A stretch of 64,000 nucleotides of DNA. It comes from Actinoallomurus purpureus (lineage in GTDB: Bacteria; Actinomycetota; Actinomycetes; Streptosporangiales; Streptosporangiaceae). Position numbers and translations under genes: made by a program. This document shows, in pieces, positions 14,470 through 23,050 of the stretch. Position 1 is the stretch's first letter, and every line of letters starts with the position of its first letter. Where the stretch lies: the NCBI RefSeq assembly GCF_024055795.1, contig NZ_JAMXMY010000026.1, positions 1 to 64,000 on the forward strand, in the 5' to 3' direction. The notes beneath the pieces are model-generated. The model ran no database searches and was not told where the DNA came from. It worked only from the letters and a program-made list of their open reading frames with translations.

Positions 14470-14924
14470 TGACGGACTTCCTTGATTCCCATGGGCGTTG
14501 ACAGGCCGTAGGAGCAGACCGGAGACGGGCGTCGTGAACGGACGGCCGTCACGCACCGCTCCGGCCGCTCGAGAGCTCTTCGGATCTTCAGCGTCGGGGC
14601 ATGGGAGGCGCACACAGCGCGCTGGCCTGCCGGCGGAGATCGACGTGCCGGCGCACTGTCAAGGGAACGTTGCGGATCACAAGTCCAGAGTGTGGAGATT
14701 TCCCTACTTTGTCAATAGGAAATATCAGATAGGTCCGGGCGACGCCCTCATCCGAGACCGGCGCCGCCGCCCTATCGCGGTTCGCCGTTGTTCTGGGGAT
14801 TCCAGGCCGTGACGGGGGTACGGAAGGGCGAAGGACGCGACGTGGGTTGGCGTAGCATCGGCGAAGGATGATCGGCGGCCGTAAGGTGAACACCGCCATC
14901 ATTCGGTGCGGAGGTGGAGACGAC
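14470..14924. other. Intergenic region between divergent regulator genes
   Basis: 455 bases. It includes an A/T-rich patch around 14685-14730, a likely promoter region for one or both flanking genes. I see no gene or repeat in it. Confidence 0.4.
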
Positions 14925-15314
14925 ATGGCGGCGGATCGACCGGACGAAGCGACGCTGGATGTGACGGTCGAACCACGTGATACGTGGTCGCTGGTGCACG
15001 TCTCGGGTGAACTCGACTACACGACCGTGGGAGTTCTCCGTGAGCAGCTGGACACCATGCTGTCCGCGGGCCAGATCCAGATCGCGCTTGAGCTGTCCAT
15101 GCTCGACTTCTGCGACTCGGTGGGGCTGGGGTGTTTCGTCGGCGCGTGGAAGCGCGCCCGTAAGGCCGGCGGCGACCTGCTGCTCCTTCGACCCGCCGGG
15201 CATGTTCAGCGGATGCTCCGGATCACGGGGCTCGACAGGTTCCTCTCCAGCCGCGATCAGCTTCCGGGCGGCGCACCGACCGGCGGTGACGCGGACCTGA
15301 CGGCGGCCCTGTAG
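14925..15314 (+). CDS. STAS-domain anti-sigma factor antagonist
   Basis: 129 residues from the ATG at 14925, preceded by GGAGGTGGAG; an upstream ATG at 14868 is in frame but less well placed. One STAS domain: SLVHVSGELDYTTVGVLREQ, then the phospho-site strand MLDFCDSVGLGCFVGAWK, then GDLLLLRPAGHVQRML and LDRFL. In this family a serine in the D-S-S/T-G motif is phosphorylated by the partner anti-sigma kinase. Here the motif is D-S-V-G, so one of the two possible acceptor positions is lost. No anti-sigma kinase is adjacent. Role in sigma-factor switching is inferred from family. Confidence 0.82.
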   Translation: MAADRPDEATLDVTVEPRDTWSLVHVSGELDYTTVGVLREQLDTMLSAGQIQIALELSMLDFCDSVGLGCFVGAWKRARKAGGDLLLLRPAGHVQRMLRITGLDRFLSSRDQLPGGAPTGGDADLTAAL

Positions 15315-15382: not shown

Positions 15383-17476
15383 TCAGATCGGTGACGCGCC
15401 CATCATCGCCAGCCAGTCGGCCTTCTCCGCCAGGGCCGCCGCGATGCCGTCCCGGCTCCGGGGCGAGTGTCCTTCTCCCGGAAGCAAGACGAGCCGCGCT
15501 CGGGTCCCATTGGCGATCAGCGCCTGGAACAGCAGCGTCGCCTGGAGCACCGGGGTCGCGGGATTCGGATCGGCCTCGCCGTGGATGATCAGAACGGGCC
15601 TCCGGATGCGCGGCGCGTTGACGATCGCGTCGAAGTCCGCGTAGACGCGCGGAGCCTCCCAGAGTGTGCGGGTCTCGTCCTGGAAGCCCAAGAGGGTCAG
15701 CTGCCGGGAGTAGGCGCCGCTCTGAACGATCGCCGTGCTGAACAGATCACAGTCCGCGATCGCCAGCAACGCGAGTGTCGCGCCGAAACTGGCACCACCG
15801 ACGGCGAGAAGGGACGGGCCGGCGTGCTCGGCGACTCCGCTGCCGAGGACCGCTTCGCGGATCTGCCGGACGAGGCGCGGCCGGATCTCCTCGTCGGTAA
15901 CCCCCGGTGGCCAGCCGGGGACGATCCTCAGGTCGAGGACGCCGTATCCGGCGAGGGTCAGGCCGTAAGGGTCGAGCGTGGAAGAGCCGGCGGGGATCGC
16001 CTCGCCGGCCTGTGACAACCAGACGAGGACGGCCGCCGGATCACGTCGGGTGGGCAGGTGGAGCGTGAACTCCGCGTCCGCCTCGGCGATCCTGCCGTGC
16101 AGCGGTGGCCGCCCTCCCGGGTGGGCCGGCAGCGGGGACCGCACCCGCCTCCTGTCGCGGACGGTCCTGACATCGCCGGGATCCCAGCCCGCGAGGGTGA
16201 TGGGCTCCTCGTCCTCCGGCACCGCGAGGTCGAACAGCCGGCTCGCGACCGCGCCCTCGTCCGGCACCTCCCAGACGACCAGGTTGTTCGCGGCGTCGAC
16301 GGTGGCGAACCGCCGACCGGCCGCCGCCGAACGCGGCGCGACCGCCGCGATCTTGATCAGCGTGGGTGGCCGGAGGCCGAGGGCCAGGCAGCGGACCGGC
16401 CGGGGAGCACCGGGGTCGACGACGAGGACGGTATAGGAGCCATCGGCGTCCAGGGCCAGGACGAAGAGGCCGTCCTGGCGGTGCGCGTGGAGGTAGCGTC
16501 CTCGGTGCCGGTGCAGCGGGCGACCGGGCTCCACGGCGCCGTCCGCCATCGCGTACGAGGTGATCGCGAAACCGTCCGGGTGACCCGTGACCGTGACGAG
16601 GTGCGCCGCCCGCGCGGTCGTCGGCGTGCGCCCGCCTGCTCGCCTCGGCCCGTGAGGCGGCGCAGGGCGGACGGCCTCGACCCAGCAGAACTCGAGCACC
16701 GGGCCCTCGTCGACCTGGATCAGGTGCTCATCCGCTGAGCCGGGGATGCCGACCGCCACGACCGCGCGGCCTGTCACCGCCGGAGCGCAGGCCGCGACGT
16801 GCCCGGTCGAGGTGCCCCGCACCCGCTGGTACGGCCGGGTGTCGAGGGAGATCGGACCGGCCGTGCCTCTGCCCGGATCCAGGGCGACGAAGCGGAATGG
16901 GTGGTACGCCGGGTGTGGAGCGTCCTTCAGGACCCGGACCCGTTCACCCGGCGTCGCCGCGAAGACGCGCTCGAACACCGGGTGCGTGGCGTCGCCGGGC
17001 GCGGTCATGGGGTCGCGCGGGCCGGGTGACGGGTCCACCGGCACCGCGAGCGAGGAACCTGCCCAGGCCAGGGGTGCCTCATCGAACGGGGGCAGAGCCG
17101 GCACCGGGCCCAGGAACGTGACCGAGCGGGCCACGACATCGGCGAGCCAGCATCGTGGGCCGCCGGAATCGATCGCGACGCCCGCGAACAATCGATGCTC
17201 CGTCGGGTGCTGGATCGGCTTTCCGAGCACTTCTCGCAGCCGCTCCGGAGCCCAGCGTGTCCCGTCCGGAGAATGAAAGAACAACCGCCCGGACGGAAGT
17301 GCCGCCGGAATGCGGTCGGGACGAACGGTGGACGGATATGGCATTCGGATGAGCGAGCTGCCATATCCGCCGCCGTGAGATTCCGTCGCGGTCTCCGCGC
17401 ATGCGTCGAGCATGTCGCAGACCTGTTTCCGGAGTCTCTCGCCGATCACGTCACCCGCCACAGAGACCGGTGACAT
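15383..17476 (-). CDS. S9-family prolyl oligopeptidase-like serine peptidase of the RiPP-like cluster
   Basis: 697 residues. The N-terminal two thirds are beta-propeller-like, with repeated short strands and no membrane segment. The C-terminal alpha/beta hydrolase has serine in GGASFGATLALLA, aspartate in IIHGEADPNPATP and histidine in LLPGEGHSPRSRDG, in the correct S9 order. The ATG at 17476 lies 22 bases after the peptide-gene stop, so it is probably co-transcribed with it; the ribosome site is weak and a later start (about residue 45) is possible. In such clusters a cytosolic S9 enzyme is a good candidate for cutting off the leader. That role is inference; the fold is clear. Confidence 0.8.
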   Translation of the reverse strand: MSPVSVAGDVIGERLRKQVCDMLDACAETATESHGGGYGSSLIRMPYPSTVRPDRIPAALPSGRLFFHSPDGTRWAPERLREVLGKPIQHPTEHRLFAGVAIDSGGPRCWLADVVARSVTFLGPVPALPPFDEAPLAWAGSSLAVPVDPSPGPRDPMTAPGDATHPVFERVFAATPGERVRVLKDAPHPAYHPFRFVALDPGRGTAGPISLDTRPYQRVRGTSTGHVAACAPAVTGRAVVAVGIPGSADEHLIQVDEGPVLEFCWVEAVRPAPPHGPRRAGGRTPTTARAAHLVTVTGHPDGFAITSYAMADGAVEPGRPLHRHRGRYLHAHRQDGLFVLALDADGSYTVLVVDPGAPRPVRCLALGLRPPTLIKIAAVAPRSAAAGRRFATVDAANNLVVWEVPDEGAVASRLFDLAVPEDEEPITLAGWDPGDVRTVRDRRRVRSPLPAHPGGRPPLHGRIAEADAEFTLHLPTRRDPAAVLVWLSQAGEAIPAGSSTLDPYGLTLAGYGVLDLRIVPGWPPGVTDEEIRPRLVRQIREAVLGSGVAEHAGPSLLAVGGASFGATLALLAIADCDLFSTAIVQSGAYSRQLTLLGFQDETRTLWEAPRVYADFDAIVNAPRIRRPVLIIHGEADPNPATPVLQATLLFQALIANGTRARLVLLPGEGHSPRSRDGIAAALAEKADWLAMMGASPI

Positions 17477-17497
17477 GAAGCGCGATGAGGACCATTT

Positions 17498-17707
17498 TCA
17501 CTTGCAGCAGTAGACCTTGTAGCCGGTCCAGCAGCAGGCACCATCGCCGCAGCTGTTGCGGTTGCGCTCCGTGTATCCGGCCGGGCAGGACCCGGCGCAG
17601 AACGGCGCCGTCCCGTCCCAGTAGCAGACCTCGGCCTCACGCTCGTTGCGGTAGGGGGTGACGGTGAACGTGGCGCGTGTCGCGGCCATTTCCTGAAGAC
17701 CGTGCAT
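17498..17707 (-). CDS. Small 8-cysteine peptide, candidate RiPP/defensin-like precursor
   Basis: 69 residues from the ATG at 17707 (AAAGGA 9 bases upstream; an upstream in-frame start is less likely). Residues 1-27 look like a leader (MHGLQEMAATRATFTVTPYR) without a Sec signal. Residues 28-69 are cysteine-dense, with cysteines at 28, 37, 41, 53, 58, 59, 67 and 68 (spacing C-x8-C-x3-C-x11-C-x4-CC-x7-CC-K). Eight cysteines allow four disulfides. The C-x3-C pair recalls CSab defensins, but the closing C-x-C of that fold is replaced by CC. A thioredoxin-fused membrane protein, a leader-peptidase candidate and an exporter are adjacent. I recognise no exact family; precursor status rests on size, composition and context. 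Confidence 0.65.
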   Translation of the reverse strand: MHGLQEMAATRATFTVTPYRNEREAEVCYWDGTAPFCAGSCPAGYTERNRNSCGDGACCWTGYKVYCCK

Positions 17708-17752
17708 GCGTGGCAGATCCTTTCTTTTGACGGCTACCGGTTGCCCCGGCAC

Positions 17753-17807
17753 TAATAGGATGACCCGCCGACTTTCTCATGTCAATGAGCAATTCTTGAT
17801 CCTATTA
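17753..17807. promoter_or_regulatory. Promoter region of the cysteine-rich peptide gene with a 9-base inverted repeat
   Basis: TAATAGGAT at 17753-17761 and ATCCTATTA at 17799-17807 form a perfect inverted repeat around an A/T-rich core. On the minus strand TTGACA (centred near 17781) followed by an A/T-richer segment could serve as a promoter for the peptide gene. The repeat could be an operator or a weak hairpin after the B2 gene, whose stop lies at its edge. Confidence 0.4.
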
Positions 17808-18209
17808 TGATTGAATTGAATGCGCCCATTGCAACACTTCGTCCGATTTCGGGAATCTGATCAATTCGACCAGGTAATTACCTGGTGGCGCGTCGGCGTC
17901 CAGCGGAACGCCCGCGATCTCGATCCAGGTGTAGACGCGGTATCCGCCGTGGGATTCGGGGAGCGGGTCGGCGCCCACGACGAGTTGCGCGGGGATCCCG
18001 CAGCGGTGGAGTGCCGCCACGACGAGGGTGTTCTCCCGCATCGGGGCGCAGAAGCCGGCGAACAGCCGTAGCGTCAGGACGATGGGGGTGACGGCCGGGC
18101 GAACGGTGCGGCGCCGCCGAGGTGGCCGGCCCATGCCGGCGATGAGGTCGGGCAGGTCCTGGCGACGCAGACGTAGTGCCGTCCACATCGCGATGATCGT
18201 CGTCGTCAT
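17805..18209 (-). CDS. Transglutaminase-like B2 protein (lasso-peptide-B2 type) with an altered active site
   Basis: 134 residues. Matches the short Transglut_core3 domain of lasso-peptide B2 leader peptidases: RLFAGFCAPMRENTLVVAAL carries the expected cysteine, followed by RCGIPAQLVVGADP and the strand YRVYTWIEIAGVPLDAD. In active B2 enzymes that strand reads AHAWVE with the catalytic histidine; here the position is tyrosine (VYTWIE). A nearby histidine (ESHGG) might substitute, or the protein may be a non-catalytic leader binder. Its ATG overlaps the MauE-thioredoxin stop by four bases. Confidence 0.72.
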   Translation of the reverse strand: MTTTIIAMWTALRLRRQDLPDLIAGMGRPPRRRRTVRPAVTPIVLTLRLFAGFCAPMRENTLVVAALHRCGIPAQLVVGADPLPESHGGYRVYTWIEIAGVPLDADAPPGNYLVELIRFPKSDEVLQWAHSIQS

Positions 18210-18991
18210 GTGGTCACCTGTGAGCCCGGTCGGTGGGAGGGCCTCGTCGCGTTGCGCAGCAGATCACGGATCGCGACCAGGCCATGGGCGGCCTCGGAGA
18301 TCGCGGTGCCGTTCGCGTCGTACGCCACGGCGGCCGGGAACGCTCCACCCGCGGCCTCCACCTCCTCTTCGGCGTCGGCACGCCGGAATCTCACCGGGCA
18401 GTCGGCCATGGCCTCATAGCGGTCGCGCTGGGCCTCGAGGGCAGCGCAGTAGCGGCAGGACTCGGCGGTGAAGATGACGATGTGATCGACGTCGGCCGGT
18501 GCCGGGACGTGGCCGGTGCCGGAGCGGCACCGGAACCAGACGACGGCGGCCCCGGCCGCCCCGAGACCCGCGGCGGCCTGGACGCAGGCGAGCCAGGTCC
18601 GCGGCGGGCCGAGGATGCCGACGAAGGCCGCCACCGCGACGACGGCGCACCCTGCCGCGTGCGCCGTCGTGAACCGGGTGGGGATCCAGCTCCCGAAGCA
18701 CGCGCAACGGCGCCCTCTCATCAGGAGCGCGGCGATCGTGTACGCGGCGAAGACGGCGCCGAGCAGCGCCAGGCGCGCCGGCACGGGCGCCGGGGCCAGC
18801 GCCGCCACCACCGCGAGGCCCTCGGCCACCGTGACCGGGGCGGGGCCCGCGAGCGCCCGTGGGCGGCCCGTCACGGGCCACATGACGCGTGTGGTCTCCC
18901 AGTCGGTGAGCTTGGCGGCGATGCTGAGGGCGAGAACGGCGACGCCGCCGACGAGGACGGCGGCCGAGCACAGGCCGGCGAGCTCTCTCAT
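18206..18991 (-). CDS. MauE/DoxX-like redox membrane protein fused to a thioredoxin-like domain
   Basis: 261 residues. The N-terminal 150 have four to five hydrophobic segments (LVGGVAVLALSIAAKL, TVAEGLAVVAALAPAP, LALLGAVFAAYTIAALLM, AAGCAVVAVAAFVGIL). There are paired cysteines in MRGRRCACFGSW, typical of MauE-type thiol transporters. A C-terminal thioredoxin-like domain carries CRYC in FTAESCRYCAALEAQ. The fusion joins electron transfer across the membrane with a dithiol oxidoreductase, an obvious partner for making or reshuffling disulfides in the 8-cysteine peptide. Overlaps the genes on both sides by four bases (ATGA). Confidence 0.78.
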   Translation of the reverse strand: MRELAGLCSAAVLVGGVAVLALSIAAKLTDWETTRVMWPVTGRPRALAGPAPVTVAEGLAVVAALAPAPVPARLALLGAVFAAYTIAALLMRGRRCACFGSWIPTRFTTAHAAGCAVVAVAAFVGILGPPRTWLACVQAAAGLGAAGAAVVWFRCRSGTGHVPAPADVDHIVIFTAESCRYCAALEAQRDRYEAMADCPVRFRRADAEEEVEAAGGAFPAAVAYDANGTAISEAAHGLVAIRDLLRNATRPSHRPGSQVTT

Positions 18992-19215
18992 ACGGTCTCC
19001 TCCTGATCGATCAACCAGCCCTCCTCGACGCCGGTGTGGAGCTCCGCGGCGAGGGCGGGCGGTGGCGGGCCGGCCGGCGCGGGATCGACGCCGGCGAGCA
19101 GCCCGGCCAACTCGGTACTGATCTGCCGGACGGCCAACCGAGCGCCGTCCAGCACGAAGGCGCCTCCGAACGGCATGGGATGCAGGCTGATGCCGTCCCG
19201 GAGCGTCCAGCTCAT
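18988..19215 (-). CDS. PqqD-like leader-recognition protein
   Basis: 75 residues: MSWTLRDGISLHPMPFGGAF, LDGARLAVRQISTELAGLL, then EEGWLIDQEETV. Size and layout fit the PqqD/RiPP-recognition-element family (two or three short strands, then helices), which binds leader peptides and presents them to modifying enzymes. The gene is hidden as the tail of a long shadow frame. Its ATG overlaps the upstream stop as ATGA and its stop overlaps the next ATG in the same way. Similar small proteins accompany actinobacterial defensin-like clusters, which I recall from family knowledge and cannot confirm here. Confidence 0.7.
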   Translation of the reverse strand: MSWTLRDGISLHPMPFGGAFVLDGARLAVRQISTELAGLLAGVDPAPAGPPPPALAAELHTGVEEGWLIDQEETV

Positions 19216-20960
19216 GACCGTCCTCCCGTGGCCAGCAGGTCGGGGTGGCACGCGGCGGTGACGCAGAGCCGGCGCAGCGCCCGCGCGTCGGCCAGCACTC
19301 GCGTGGAGTCGGCGAGAACGGCGCGGAGGCGGTCGTGCACGATCCACGGGCTGCCGTCGACCTCGGCCAGCAGTGCCGCGCGCCGCTCCGGCGCGGCCAG
19401 GCGGCGGGTGACGAAGGCGGCGGCCAGCAGGCCGTCGCGCTCGTCCGGCGTCACGTCGCCGGGCCGGCGGCCGGCCGGCACCAGGTCGTGCAGCAGGGGC
19501 GCGGCCTGGATGTAACCGTCGCGCCGACGGACCCGGAGGCGACCGTGCCGGGCCAGCAGCACCGCCGCGCCGAGCACCACCGGGTGCGCGCAGACCAGCA
19601 CGGGGTCGATCCTGCGGTCGCCGAGGGCCCGCGGAGGGCGTTCGAGAAGGTCGAGAACGGCCTGCAGGGCCCCGGCGCCGGGCACGGCGTCCGTCGTGTC
19701 GTCGGCGACGGGAAGCAGGTGGCTGGCGGTCTGGGCGGAGGTCACGGCGGCACCGGCCTCGGCGACGGCCGGAGAGATCCAGCCGCCCGGGAGGCCACCG
19801 TCCGGGGAGTGCGCGTGGTCGTGCGGTGTTGCGGGCTCGTCGGTGCGCGGCGGGCGCCAGGCCTGCCACCCGGGCCGGCCGAACAGGGCCGGGAACGGCG
19901 CGGCCATGGTCAGCTGCCGCCATCCGGTGAGGAACCGACCGGGCGTGCCGGCGTCCCCGGTCAGCAGCCTGACGAGCCCCGCCCCGCTGAGCAGCGGGGC
20001 CGCCTCCCACTCGGTGCGCCGGAGAAGCTCCGGGACCGGCGGCCAGGGATCGCCCTCCTCGGCGGCGCCGACCCGGTGGCCGTCGCAAATCCGTCTCCAG
20101 TGGTCCATGCCGTCGACCACCTGAGTGTCGGCGGGGAGCCGTCCGCGACGGCGGTCGAGCACCGGGACGTCCAGATGGACGTGGAGGCGGCACAGCCGTG
20201 CCGGGTCGACCGCGGCCAGGGCCGCCGCGCCGAGCCCGCCGCCGTCGCCGAGCACTCCGCGGCCTCCGGCGGCGGACAGGGCCTCGTCGAGGGCGTGCCG
20301 CAGGGCCCGGCGGACCACCTCGCGCGGGTCGATCGGGCGCCCGAGGATCCGGCGGGCCTGGTCGGCGAGGTCGGCGAGGTCGAGCTCGTCGAGGGTGAGG
20401 CGCTCCCGGCCACCGGACGTGCTCAACGTCGTGCCGCACGCCAGTTGGAAGACCCCTTCGTACGGCGTGAGCGGCATCGGCACCGCCTGCCCGGCCAGTG
20501 CCGCCGCGACGGCGGCGGCCCAGGGAGCGGGCCCGGCTCCGGTCACGTCGGCGGGCTCGGTCGAGAATCGCACCGCGCGGCCCTCCGGACCGTCGGTGAC
20601 GGCGTAGAAGAGCCGCGCCTGCGACAGCGCGCCTCTGCCCAGGGTGCCGGTCGTCGGGTCGGCCCACGTCTGGGCGAGCCGGCCCGCGGAGGCGAACGGG
20701 CCGACGACCACGAGGCCGCCCCGGGCGGCGGAGTCCGCCGCCGGGCCGGGGTCCGCCCCCGCCCTGGGGTCCGCCGCCGGGGAATGGCGCCCGCCGCAGG
20801 AGCAGACCGTCTCGACGACCATCCGCCCGGCCGTGGCCGTGCCGGTGAAGCCGACGGGCGCCCCGCCCGAGGTGCAGCCGGCGGCCCGCGCTCCGGGCGT
20901 GACACCGGTCAGCGTGTCACCCCGAAGGGTCGAATCCGGCAAGCCGTTGCGTTTTCCCAC
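19212..20960 (-). CDS. Degenerate asparagine-synthetase-like protein (lasso-cyclase-related) of the RiPP-like cluster
   Basis: 582 residues. Segments echo class II asparagine synthetases and lasso cyclases: ARLFYAVTDGPEGRAV, PLTPYEGVFQLACGTTL (compare the TPF/YEGV-x-x-LPPG motif) and a helix RRALRHALDEAL leading to the ATP-pyrophosphatase loop. That loop reads GVLGDGGGLGAAALAAV instead of SGGLDSS, so the key serine and aspartate are missing and AMP-forming chemistry is doubtful. No N-terminal cysteine for glutamine amidotransfer is present. It may be a scaffold or a divergent enzyme. The start is uncertain (GTG at 20960 or later GTG codons). First gene of the minus-strand biosynthetic operon. 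Confidence 0.6.
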   Translation of the reverse strand: MGKRNGLPDSTLRGDTLTGVTPGARAAGCTSGGAPVGFTGTATAGRMVVETVCSCGGRHSPAADPRAGADPGPAADSAARGGLVVVGPFASAGRLAQTWADPTTGTLGRGALSQARLFYAVTDGPEGRAVRFSTEPADVTGAGPAPWAAAVAAALAGQAVPMPLTPYEGVFQLACGTTLSTSGGRERLTLDELDLADLADQARRILGRPIDPREVVRRALRHALDEALSAAGGRGVLGDGGGLGAAALAAVDPARLCRLHVHLDVPVLDRRRGRLPADTQVVDGMDHWRRICDGHRVGAAEEGDPWPPVPELLRRTEWEAAPLLSGAGLVRLLTGDAGTPGRFLTGWRQLTMAAPFPALFGRPGWQAWRPPRTDEPATPHDHAHSPDGGLPGGWISPAVAEAGAAVTSAQTASHLLPVADDTTDAVPGAGALQAVLDLLERPPRALGDRRIDPVLVCAHPVVLGAAVLLARHGRLRVRRRDGYIQAAPLLHDLVPAGRRPGDVTPDERDGLLAAAFVTRRLAAPERRAALLAEVDGSPWIVHDRLRAVLADSTRVLADARALRRLCVTAACHPDLLATGGRS

Positions 20961-21117
20961 CGGTCACCCCAAAGAACCAGATCCGGATATCCCGTCGAAT
21001 TTCCCATTCAGCACCGCCCGTCAACTCGAGCTTTCCTGGAAAGTCATCGCGCACTTGGGCAGCACATGACGCCGACATTACCAAGGTCGAACGCCATTGC
21101 CGAGATGCTGCGTAAAT

Positions 21118-21135
21118 TGTCCACTGTTGTGGACA
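21118..21135. promoter_or_regulatory. Palindromic operator candidate in the divergent promoter region of the RiPP-like cluster
   Basis: TGTCCAC-TGTT-GTGGACA is a perfect 7-base inverted repeat, 86 bases upstream of the exporter ATG and in the region between the divergent biosynthetic and export genes. It is well placed to control both. No dedicated regulator is adjacent. Confidence 0.5.
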
Positions 21136-21220
21136 TTCGTGGGCACTCGTCATTTCTCCGGCAGACGTGGCAGACTGCCGGACGGTGACGGATGAGCATG
21201 GCGCGAGGAAAGGCGGCACC

Positions 21221-23050
21221 ATGACGATCAAGGGTCAGTGGCGGCGTTTCTCCGTAATGCGGCGATTGCTGACTTTCGGGGTGGCCCTCGCATGGCGGGC
21301 CGACCGCCGGCGGGTGGCGGCCGTCCTGCTTCTGCAGCTCCTGCAGTCGATCGGCCTGGGCGGCATGCTGCTGGGCGGCCACGGCGTGGCCGACGGGCTT
21401 ATGGGCCCAGCACACGGACACGCCGGCATCACACGAGCCGGAATATCCGCTCTTATCGTCATGGCCCTCTCATTCGTCAACAGCACCCTTAATCTCTTCG
21501 GCCTCCTTCATCAATGCGTCCTTCGTGTCGCCATCGAACGCGACGCGGTGGAGGCGGTGACCGCGGCCACGGCCCGGACGGATCTGCTGGAATTCGAACG
21601 GCCCGGCTTTCACGACACGGTCCGGCTCGCGCTGACGGCGGCCCAGATTCACGCCCCCAATCTGCCGTTCACCGTCATGACCGTGACGCGGACCGTGTTG
21701 ACACTGGCCACGGTGGTGATCGCGCTCGTCGCCATGGCCTGGTGGCTGCTTCCGCTTCTTCTGCTCGCGGCGATCCCGTCGATACGGGTGGCGCTGCTCC
21801 AGCAGCGGGCCCATTTCGACCTCCAGCGAAGTCTCACCGAGAATCAGCGCACCGCCGGATACCTCACCCAGTTGCTCACCGGGAGAGACGAGGCGAAAGA
21901 GCTCCGCGCGTTCGGCCTGGGGCGTACGTTCTTCGACCGGTTGGCGGCCTGTTATGACCGCGCGCTGAGCGCGGAGGTCGCGTTCCGGCGCCGGTTCCTC
22001 GGCAAGGAGATCCGGGCGAGACTGGCGGGGCACGCCATGGCGGCCGCGGCGGTCGGCGGCCTGATCGTCGCGACGGCCTCCGGGGTCATCGGCACGGCGG
22101 TCGCGCTGACTGCGCTCGGCGGCCTGCTGATCGGCGTGCAGCAGGCCATCACGCTCACATCCGTCCTGCGGGCGTCCGGCGATTCCCTGCGCTACCTCGA
22201 TGCGCTCCGGACGTTCACCGAAGGTGCGGCCGGGCCTCCCCCGCCGCCCGCGATCACACGCCGGTCGTTCGACTCCCTGCGGGCCCGGCGGCTCTCCTTC
22301 ACCTACCCCGGCGGCGCCCGTCCCGCGGTGGACGGGGTGTCGATCGACCTGCGCCCCGGCGAGGTGGTCGCCCTCGTCGGGGAGAACGGCTCCGGCAAGA
22401 CGACGCTGACCAAGCTGCTGACCGGGCTCTACGCCCCGGCCGCCGGTGAGCTGCTGGTGGACGGCAGGCCCGTCGCCGCCGCCGAGCTACGGGCGCTGTC
22501 GACGGTGCTGTTCCAGGACTACCTGCACTACAAGCTCTCCGTCGCGGAGAACATCGCGCTCGGCGATCCCGCGTGCCTCGGCGACCGCGGCAAGGTCCTC
22601 GAGGCGGCTCGGCGCGCCGGCGTGACCCCGATCGTCGCGAACCTGCCCGGCGGGTACGACACGCGGCTGGGAGCGGAGTTCACCGGCGGCACGGACCTGT
22701 CCCTCGGGCAGTGGCAGCGGGTCGCGCTGGCCCGGGCCTTCTTCCGGCAGGCACCGCTCGTCGTGCTGGACGAGCCGACGGCGGCCATGGACGCGCGCGC
22801 GGAGGCCGACCTGTTCGCCCGGATCCGGGAGCTGTTCGCCGACCGCGCCGTCCTGCTGATCTCACACCGGTTCTCGAGCGTCCGCTCGGCCGACCGGATC
22901 CATGTGCTGCGCCAGGGAAGGGTCGTCGAAGCGGGGACCCACGACGAGCTGATGGCCGCCGATGGGCTGTACGCCGAATTCTTCCGCATCCAGGCGGCAG
23001 CGTACCTCGACGACCCGGCACCACGTTCGCGATCGATCAAGCCGGTGTGA
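21221..23050 (+). CDS. ABC exporter (fused membrane and ATPase domains), peptide export candidate
   Basis: 609 residues from the ATG at 21221 (AGGAAAGG upstream). The N-terminal exporter membrane domain has five to six hydrophobic segments (for example RVAAVLLLQLLQSIGLGGML, LATVVIALVAMAWWLLPLLL). The ATPase has Walker A GENGSGKTT, an altered signature LSLGQWQRVALAR, Walker B LVVLDEPTAAMD and the histidine switch LLISHRF. No C39 peptidase domain is attached, so leader removal must be done by another enzyme (the S9 or B2 protein). Divergent from the biosynthetic operon and probably exports its product. Confidence 0.85.
   Translation: MTIKGQWRRFSVMRRLLTFGVALAWRADRRRVAAVLLLQLLQSIGLGGMLLGGHGVADGLMGPAHGHAGITRAGISALIVMALSFVNSTLNLFGLLHQCVLRVAIERDAVEAVTAATARTDLLEFERPGFHDTVRLALTAAQIHAPNLPFTVMTVTRTVLTLATVVIALVAMAWWLLPLLLLAAIPSIRVALLQQRAHFDLQRSLTENQRTAGYLTQLLTGRDEAKELRAFGLGRTFFDRLAACYDRALSAEVAFRRRFLGKEIRARLAGHAMAAAAVGGLIVATASGVIGTAVALTALGGLLIGVQQAITLTSVLRASGDSLRYLDALRTFTEGAAGPPPPPAITRRSFDSLRARRLSFTYPGGARPAVDGVSIDLRPGEVVALVGENGSGKTTLTKLLTGLYAPAAGELLVDGRPVAAAELRALSTVLFQDYLHYKLSVAENIALGDPACLGDRGKVLEAARRAGVTPIVANLPGGYDTRLGAEFTGGTDLSLGQWQRVALARAFFRQAPLVVLDEPTAAMDARAEADLFARIRELFADRAVLLISHRFSSVRSADRIHVLRQGRVVEAGTHDELMAADGLYAEFFRIQAAAYLDDPAPRSRSIKPV

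Follow-up and report, generated by a model that had tools for sequence, protein, structure and literature searches.

A probable actinodefensin-type gene cluster in Actinoallomurus purpureus with an eight-cysteine peptide as its cargo

The window analysed here is a 64,000-nucleotide stretch of DNA from the soil actinomycete Actinoallomurus purpureus (NCBI RefSeq assembly GCF_024055795.1, contig NZ_JAMXMY010000026.1, positions 1 to 64,000 of the forward strand). Between positions 15383 and 23050 lies a set of genes for maturing and exporting a Cys-rich peptide, which an earlier note made from the sequence of the window had proposed and which is supported by gene content and conservation. We conclude that this is an actinodefensin-type cluster carrying new cargo. 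This conclusion is directly supported by the gene content, the conserved machinery with swapped cargo, the homology of four protein families, the lost lasso residues and the kinship of the peptidase to S9D enzymes. The genes of the cluster are as follows.

17498-17707, minus strand: precursor peptide of 69 aa, leader plus eight-Cys core (open reading frame; A. spadix orthologue; purifying selection)
17805-18209, minus strand: B2-like protein of the transglutaminase fold, catalytic Cys and His missing, probable pseudoenzyme (PF13471 below cut-off; residue comparison)
18206-18991, minus strand: fusion of MauE, with CxC and five hydrophobic segments, and a thioredoxin-like domain with CxxC (PF07291 and PF13098 below cut-off; hydropathy)
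18988-19215, minus strand: PqqD-like protein with a RiPP recognition element (RRE), of the actinodefensin-associated protein B type (NF038044, below cut-off)
19212-20960, minus strand: degenerate asparagine-synthetase/lasso-cyclase-like (AsnB-like) protein, probable pseudoenzyme (hhalign; PP-loop Asp and GGD lost)
15383-17476, minus strand: S9D-like peptidase, candidate Glu-specific leader peptidase (PF00326; glutamyl endopeptidase kinship; triad motifs)
21167 (or 21221)-23050, plus strand: divergent ATP-binding cassette (ABC) exporter, permease-ATPase (PF00005; A. spadix orthologue)

The open reading frames (ORFs) confirm the 69-residue precursor with eight Cys within residues 28-69, i.e. its last 42 residues, among the partners named in the earlier note. 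Overlaps of exactly four bases are present at three junctions, i.e. AsnB-like/PqqD-like, PqqD-like/MauE-thioredoxin and MauE-thioredoxin/B2-like. The S9 gene lies downstream in the cluster, and the divergent exporter gene, for which the gene caller favours the ATG at 21221, lies on the plus strand beyond the AsnB-like gene. A hidden Markov model search of the peptide and its partners, which the earlier note had proposed as a check, supported the labels in part. S9 (PF00326, 4.7e-13) and the ABC protein (PF00005, 2e-29) pass the Pfam cut-offs; the MauE half (PF07291, E=5e-4), the thioredoxin half (PF13098, E=0.06) and the B2-like protein (PF13471, E=0.007, more precisely 0.0074) remain below them; the PqqD-like protein matches NF038044 only (E=1.6e-9, 38.1 bits; NCBIfam cut-off 45); the peptide has no credible match; and the AsnB-like protein has no Pfam match at E<=1 by itself and is recognised only together with its relatives.

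The orthologous cluster L032 in Actinoallomurus spadix has the same gene set as the window, and the ABC exporters are 80% identical. The ratios of non-synonymous to synonymous substitution rates (dN/dS) between the two are 0.175 for B2, 0.28 for PqqD, 0.40 for the AsnB-like protein, 0.42 for MauE-thioredoxin and 0.24 for the ABC exporter; these genes are under selection, the presumed pseudoenzymes included. The A. spadix PqqD-like protein (L032:8259-8720) has a long Gly/Pro/Asp-rich insertion in its middle, giving ~153 aa compared to 75 in the window, and the homologues in genus g38 are likewise variable in length.

When 278 genomes of the order that includes G329 were searched with NF038043 (protein A), a sole locus, L072, was returned; G329 and the window genome are related at class level only. 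This locus scores 118 bits with NF038042, 676 bits with NF038043 and 65.9 bits with NF038044, and its precursor matches PF01097 (1.7e-8); to judge by these scores, L072 is a genuine actinodefensin cluster. It contains an actinodefensin precursor, proteins A and B, a MauE-thioredoxin protein, an S9 peptidase and a B2-like protein as well as an ABC exporter and a subtilisin-like protease, the latter two recognised by eye. When profiles of the window-type families were compared with 454 proteins, the L072 proteins were matched at 3.2e-24 (S9), 9e-19 (MauE-thioredoxin), 2.1e-13 (B2) and 4.8e-5 (PqqD), ranking directly after the window-type loci and best outside them; the best lasso-type proteins rank lower in the same profiles (B2, 1e-6; PqqD, 0.0033). 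Because four partner families best-match a genuine actinodefensin locus, the window cluster is regarded as actinodefensin-type with swapped cargo, and the recovery of these families upholds the choice of actinodefensin clusters as the nearest comparison in the earlier note. With NF038044, which describes actinodefensin-associated protein B, the PqqD-like protein of the related locus L033 reaches 79.6 bits, and two lasso B1 controls reach 34.6 and 30.0 bits.

The actinodefensin (actifensin) cluster resembles that of the window in having PqqD, MauE-thioredoxin, S9, a degenerate B2, an ABC exporter, a 69-aa precursor and a Glu before the core. By contrast, its cargo is a cysteine-stabilised alpha-beta (CSalpha-beta) defensin (NF038042, PF01097) and not an eight-Cys peptide; NF038043, at the AsnB position, is not significantly similar to the window AsnB-like protein; its exporter is of another ABC lineage; and it has an extra subtilisin and regulators. 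NF038043 has no match at E<=10 in the window genome. The window precursor matches neither NF038042 nor any other NCBIfam model, and its core is unlike the L072 defensin core, in line with the earlier statement that the core is neither of the lasso nor of the CSalpha-beta type.

The gene-neighbourhood comparison across actinomycetes that the earlier note had suggested gave eight clusters in one family that contain B2, AsnB-like, PqqD, MauE-thioredoxin and S9 genes (window, L032, L033, L034, L035, L058, L059 and L081). Six of them (window, L032, L033, L034, L035 and L081) have the ABC gene, which is partial in L034; in L058 and L059 the contig stops inside the S9 gene, and the L081 precursor would lie beyond a contig end. 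The MauE-thioredoxin profile has matches in 2/8 genomes of the window genus, 6/65 of genus g38, 1/3 of genus g51 and 7/295 family genomes; these genome sets overlap, and the family search scored eight first-look candidates per genome, so that members may be missed. Across the class, at least one of 394 genomes has a match (the window only, among the best six candidates per genome), and across the phylum, 1/396 matches NF038044. Searches of plasmids with sister-cluster genes gave no match. A partial MauE-thioredoxin match on G050 contig 572 does not correspond to any called gene and was set aside.

In five of the sister clusters (L033, L034, L035, L058 and L059), B2 is adjoined by a gene for a precursor of 56-59 aa that has six Cys in the pattern C-x6-C-x5-CC-x4/7-C-x4-C. 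This spacing is knottin-type, and we take it to be that of the inhibitor cystine knot (ICK). Among the four of these five peptides compared with Pfam, that of L058 passes the cut-off of PF11703 (27.0 compared to 23.2 bits) and the others match knottin-type families weakly. The L058 peptide also has seven weak matches in the PDB (E 0.12-0.92), i.e. six venom peptides by name, presumably ICK peptides, and Dickkopf-4. The two Actinoallomurus clusters carry homologous cargo, and that of five others is different, i.e. knottin-type; shuffling gave no convincing sign that two of the five knottin cores or the L072 defensin core are homologous to that of the window. These observations speak for related machinery that handles three or more types of cargo.

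The window core has the pattern C-x8-C-x3-C-x11-C-x4-CC-x7-CC-K, and the leader probably comprises about residues 1-24 or 1-26. The A. spadix peptide is 87% identical, retains all eight Cys and has a dN/dS of ~0.39. We consider the precursor real because it is conserved in A. spadix; Cys content alone is weak evidence, since a crude scan found six small Cys-rich ORFs in the window, including the precursor. The peptide is rare. Credible matches are present in 2/297 family genomes (that of the window and G091), a pattern-seeded scan of the genome collection gave one locus, tblastn against 18 large loci found the A. spadix copies only, and the best match in a phage search had E=2. Eleven further matches in the 297 genomes (E 5.9e-4 to 8.9e-3; 13 in all) were rejected as the Cys pattern was missing on translation, and the plasmid matches H2, H4 and H12 were likewise dropped after translation.

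The earlier note held that the product class might be undescribed. The peptide has no credible match in Pfam, NCBIfam or solved structures. Its core, however, matches modules in larger proteins, i.e. two tandem modules in the Cupriavidus KK10 protein L062, in which PF17660 repeats are present (91% of the query aligned by tblastn, E=0.02), and a single module in the viral-contig protein L067, which has lectin-like repeats by eye. The consensus in the larger proteins is CRWDGTAPFCxGxC...GxACxxGxKxxCC, 18 columns are invariant across the four core-module sequences, and in each of three comparisons 0/2000 Cys-fixed shuffles reached the score. On this comparison, the window core is homologous to a Cys-rich module of larger proteins and hence not wholly orphan. 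In those proteins the module has six Cys and lies behind an N-terminus that is signal-like by eye, whereas the window peptide is stand-alone and leader-bearing with two extra Cys. When the window core was compared by shuffling with four other cargo cores (two knottins, the L072 defensin and the second A. spadix peptide), three showed nothing; for the L034 knottin core, 5/2000 shuffles reached the score (z 3.6), which we read as a likeness of Cys pattern and not homology. That second A. spadix peptide has 59 aa and six Cys and is followed by its own ABC exporter, which is related to the cluster exporter (5.8e-92); the two lie beside the cluster, at L032:1857-3942, and the window cluster has no such neighbour among its called genes.

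The earlier note ascribed lasso-type machinery to the cluster; this is correct with respect to descent but not chemistry. Lasso clusters (A/B1/B2/C/D) and the window have in common the fold families of B1 (PqqD), B2 and C together with an ABC exporter; however, the window lacks the catalytic residues of B2 and C as well as matches to lasso NCBIfam models, and its precursor has eight Cys. The catalytic Cys and His of B2 are missing in 9/9 loci (window, seven sisters and L072) and kept in 9/9 lasso-type controls, which come from the same search and two of which are confirmed as lasso B2 by NCBIfam. In the 7/7 aligned window-type proteins, Met or Val replaces the Cys and Tyr or Phe replaces the His of HAW, and the same loss is seen in L081 (Val, Tyr) and L072 (Ile, Leu). 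The Cys that the window B2 has nearby is Ser in A. spadix, five of the nine loci have no Cys in B2 at all, and none is conserved. McjB-like proteins, as described in PMC7533575, conserve a Cys-His-Asp triad.

Lasso cyclases have the PP-loop consensus SGGxDS and a GGD motif. The AsnB-like proteins have lost the PP-loop Asp (8/8) and lack GGD (7/7 aligned), whereas six control cyclases keep D-S (6/6) and GGD (6/6), one of them with an altered SGG. The AsnB-like family is nevertheless related to lasso-type cyclases: compared with the six, hhalign gives a probability of 96.1 (E=3.6e-9), and the AsnB-like profile finds the cyclases of L036 and L037 (2.8e-11 and 6.3e-9). The kinship of B2 follows from Pfam matches (E=0.0074 and 0.0039), tblastn matches to L036/L037 and the L072 profile match. 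The NCBIfam lasso B1, B2 and cyclase models give no match at E<=1 for the window B2, PqqD and AsnB-like proteins, nor do lasso models match the L033 proteins or the L034 AsnB-like protein, while they do match two control clusters. No AsnB-like homologue was confirmed in viral contigs. Because the B2 Cys and His and the AsnB-like PP-loop Asp are lost, we conclude from these residues that this is not a working lasso system and that the lasso link is one of descent only; the B2-like and AsnB-like proteins are probably pseudoenzymes. The motif YxxP is a lasso-leader motif and was recognised by eye in lasso-type precursors and, as YAEP/HAEP, in knottin leaders. L036:8237-11476 and L037:6543-9952 are lasso-like B2/AsnB/PqqD clusters in which B2 retains its Cys and His and an extra protein of ~300 aa is encoded; their PqqD proteins lie near the actinodefensin-B cut-off, and the clusters are possibly intermediate between lasso and actinodefensin systems.

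The S9 gene is present in 9/9 loci, two of which are cut by contig ends, and the Ser, Asp and His triad motifs are present in 7/7 loci with a complete catalytic domain (by eye in L081). Chains of the chloroplast glutamyl endopeptidase (CGEP) are the sole solved relatives of the window S9 at E<=1e-4 (best 1.6e-30), and by this kinship the window S9 belongs with the S9D glutamyl endopeptidases. CGEP is reported to cleave strictly after Glu (PMC12871690). Before the first Cys, VAE is present in 5/5 knottins, EAE followed by Val-Cys in the window and GAE followed by GFGC in L072. The mature N-terminus of actifensin was sequenced directly after a Glu, the removal of which its authors ascribe to an exopeptidase (PMC6989792). 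Based on the kinship to CGEP, which cuts after Glu, and on the Glu found where the leader should end or close to it, we infer that S9 is the leader peptidase. The lasso-type leader handling suggested in the earlier note thus gives way to removal by S9, whose closest solved relative cuts after Glu, as the more likely route.

MauE-thioredoxin is a candidate thiol-redox partner, in agreement with the earlier note, and the four Cys of CxC and CxxC are invariant in 8/8 aligned proteins. For MauE, a part in forming the disulfides of methylamine dehydrogenase has been suggested speculatively, and three candidate RiPP families contain MauE genes (PMC7794033), RiPP denoting ribosomally synthesised and post-translationally modified peptides. 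The fusion probably forms disulfides; it may instead reduce or isomerise them. The MauE-bearing decRiPPter families of Streptomyces resemble the window in having a MauE homologue in a putative RiPP cluster; however, in the excerpts of that report, these families are not linked to lasso-derived proteins, S9D or defensin-type cargo (PMC7794033). The g38 genomes L060 and L061 have MauE-thioredoxin only, within the 19.9 kb examined. These orphan genes (L060:9432-10265 and L061:9562-10398) have intact CxC and CxxC as well as one-side neighbours in common with the L059 cluster and are perhaps remnants of cluster loss. In G264, a MauE-thioredoxin fusion lies in a different Cys-peptide cluster and was left out of the count; there (L082:2765-8742, labels by eye), the fusion comes after an exporter, and a short gene for a Cys-rich peptide separates this exporter from a lanthionine-synthetase-like gene, so that MauE-thioredoxin may serve other RiPP classes.

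We consider it probable that the cluster is a divergent actinodefensin-type cluster for a different disulfide-rich miniprotein that works as follows. The PqqD-like RRE protein together with the dead lasso-derived B2 and AsnB-like proteins would form a non-catalytic holding complex that maintains the precursor in a reduced, soluble state and hands it on. Leader removal, after Glu (E24 or E26 of the window precursor), would be the task of the S9D peptidase and secretion that of the ABC exporter, and the membrane-bound MauE-thioredoxin would form or proofread four disulfides. By analogy with actifensin, the secreted peptide would most likely act against competing microbes. With slightly less confidence, though still on balance in favour, we suggest that the dead RRE/B2/AsnB assembly, the Glu-specific S9D and the MauE-thioredoxin oxidase are a general folding-and-export platform for at least three unrelated disulfide-rich folds (CSalpha-beta defensin, ICK and eight-Cys module).

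A description of this cluster type was not found in the open-access literature searched, and in the source on actifensin the neighbours afnG-I are called hypothetical (PMC6989792). The present analysis offers an enzyme for the actifensin Glu cut (S9D), a candidate redox protein (MauE-thioredoxin) and a line of descent (dead lasso-type proteins). The machinery is apparently not tied to the defensin fold and could provide a fold-independent handle for bacterial defensins, knottins and other disulfide-rich peptides missed by peptide-based searches as well as a possible production system for disulfide-rich peptides. If the platform proposal is true, new classes of such peptides could be mined via the machinery instead of the peptide.

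Several observations weigh against the proposed working and its link to actinodefensin clusters. The AsnB-like profile does not match L072 protein A significantly (E=0.27). Among the ABC matches to the window-type profile, the L072 exporter ranks no higher than 22nd. The window leader has no significant similarity to leaders of other cargo classes in seven comparisons. In the PDB at E<=1, the B2 profile finds no chain and the AsnB-like profile finds three designed ankyrin chains but no asparagine synthetase or relative; the profile-to-profile match of B2 to lasso B2 is weak (probability 1.6, E=0.031); and the MauE-thioredoxin and PqqD proteins of L033 have no Pfam match at E<=1. As for S9, a sister-cluster enzyme matches CGEP at 5.4e-30 and, much more weakly, an esterase (9.4e-5); in CGEP, Glu is favoured by hinge-loop residues, and the Glu specificity of the leader peptidase is presumed from kinship. 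In A. spadix, the sequence is EAANC with the nearest Glu four residues before the first Cys, and the second peptide beside that cluster lacks a Glu in the vicinity of its first Cys. Finally, no signal peptide was seen by eye in S9, which bears on the order of cleavage and export.

Four other explanations were considered. In a genuine lasso-like RiPP cluster, active AsnB-like and B2 proteins would add a macrolactam to the Cys-rich peptide; the homology that links the AsnB-like proteins with lasso-type cyclases (hhalign 96), that of the folds of PqqD and B2 and the operon with four-base overlaps would be expected from it. We regard it as highly improbable given that the PP-loop Asp (8/8), GGD (7/7 aligned) and the B2 Cys and His (9/9) are missing and kept in controls, and that NCBIfam lasso models miss the window and L033 proteins but match two control clusters. 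If B2 and the AsnB-like protein had instead acquired a new catalytic activity, e.g. as transferase or disulfide isomerase, they would not be scaffolds, and their purifying selection (dN/dS 0.175 and 0.40) and presence in all eight clusters would be explained; the lack of a conserved Cys in B2, with 0 Cys in 5/9 loci, and the loss of the AsnB-like catalytic motifs looked for make this a rather unlikely alternative.

S9 enzymes are isopeptidases in some lasso clusters, and the window S9 could be an immunity or recycling peptidase, with the leader removed by another protease or during export. The weak match of the window S9 to NF033523 (E=0.0069, 15.2 bits; cut-off 400) is consistent with such a function, and besides S9 the actinodefensin locus encodes a subtilisin-type protease. 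We consider this unlikely since the S9D glutamyl endopeptidase is a far nearer relative of the enzyme, the precursor has a Glu where its leader should end or close to it, the S9 gene is in every locus and the window exporter contains no Pfam peptidase domain. Somewhat less doubtful, although still improbable, is that the peptide is not a bacteriocin but a signalling or structural secreted protein or is directed at eukaryotes. Its core matches modules of larger proteins (one with PF17660 repeats, one lectin-like by eye), and the sister knottins resemble eukaryotic ICK peptides; against this, the machinery is common to actifensin, which is described as antibacterial (PMC6989792, PMC12284004).

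Next to the cluster, a gene for a STAS-domain anti-anti-sigma-like protein (14868-15314 in the window) adjoins it in both the window and A. spadix and is probably an ordinary neighbour.

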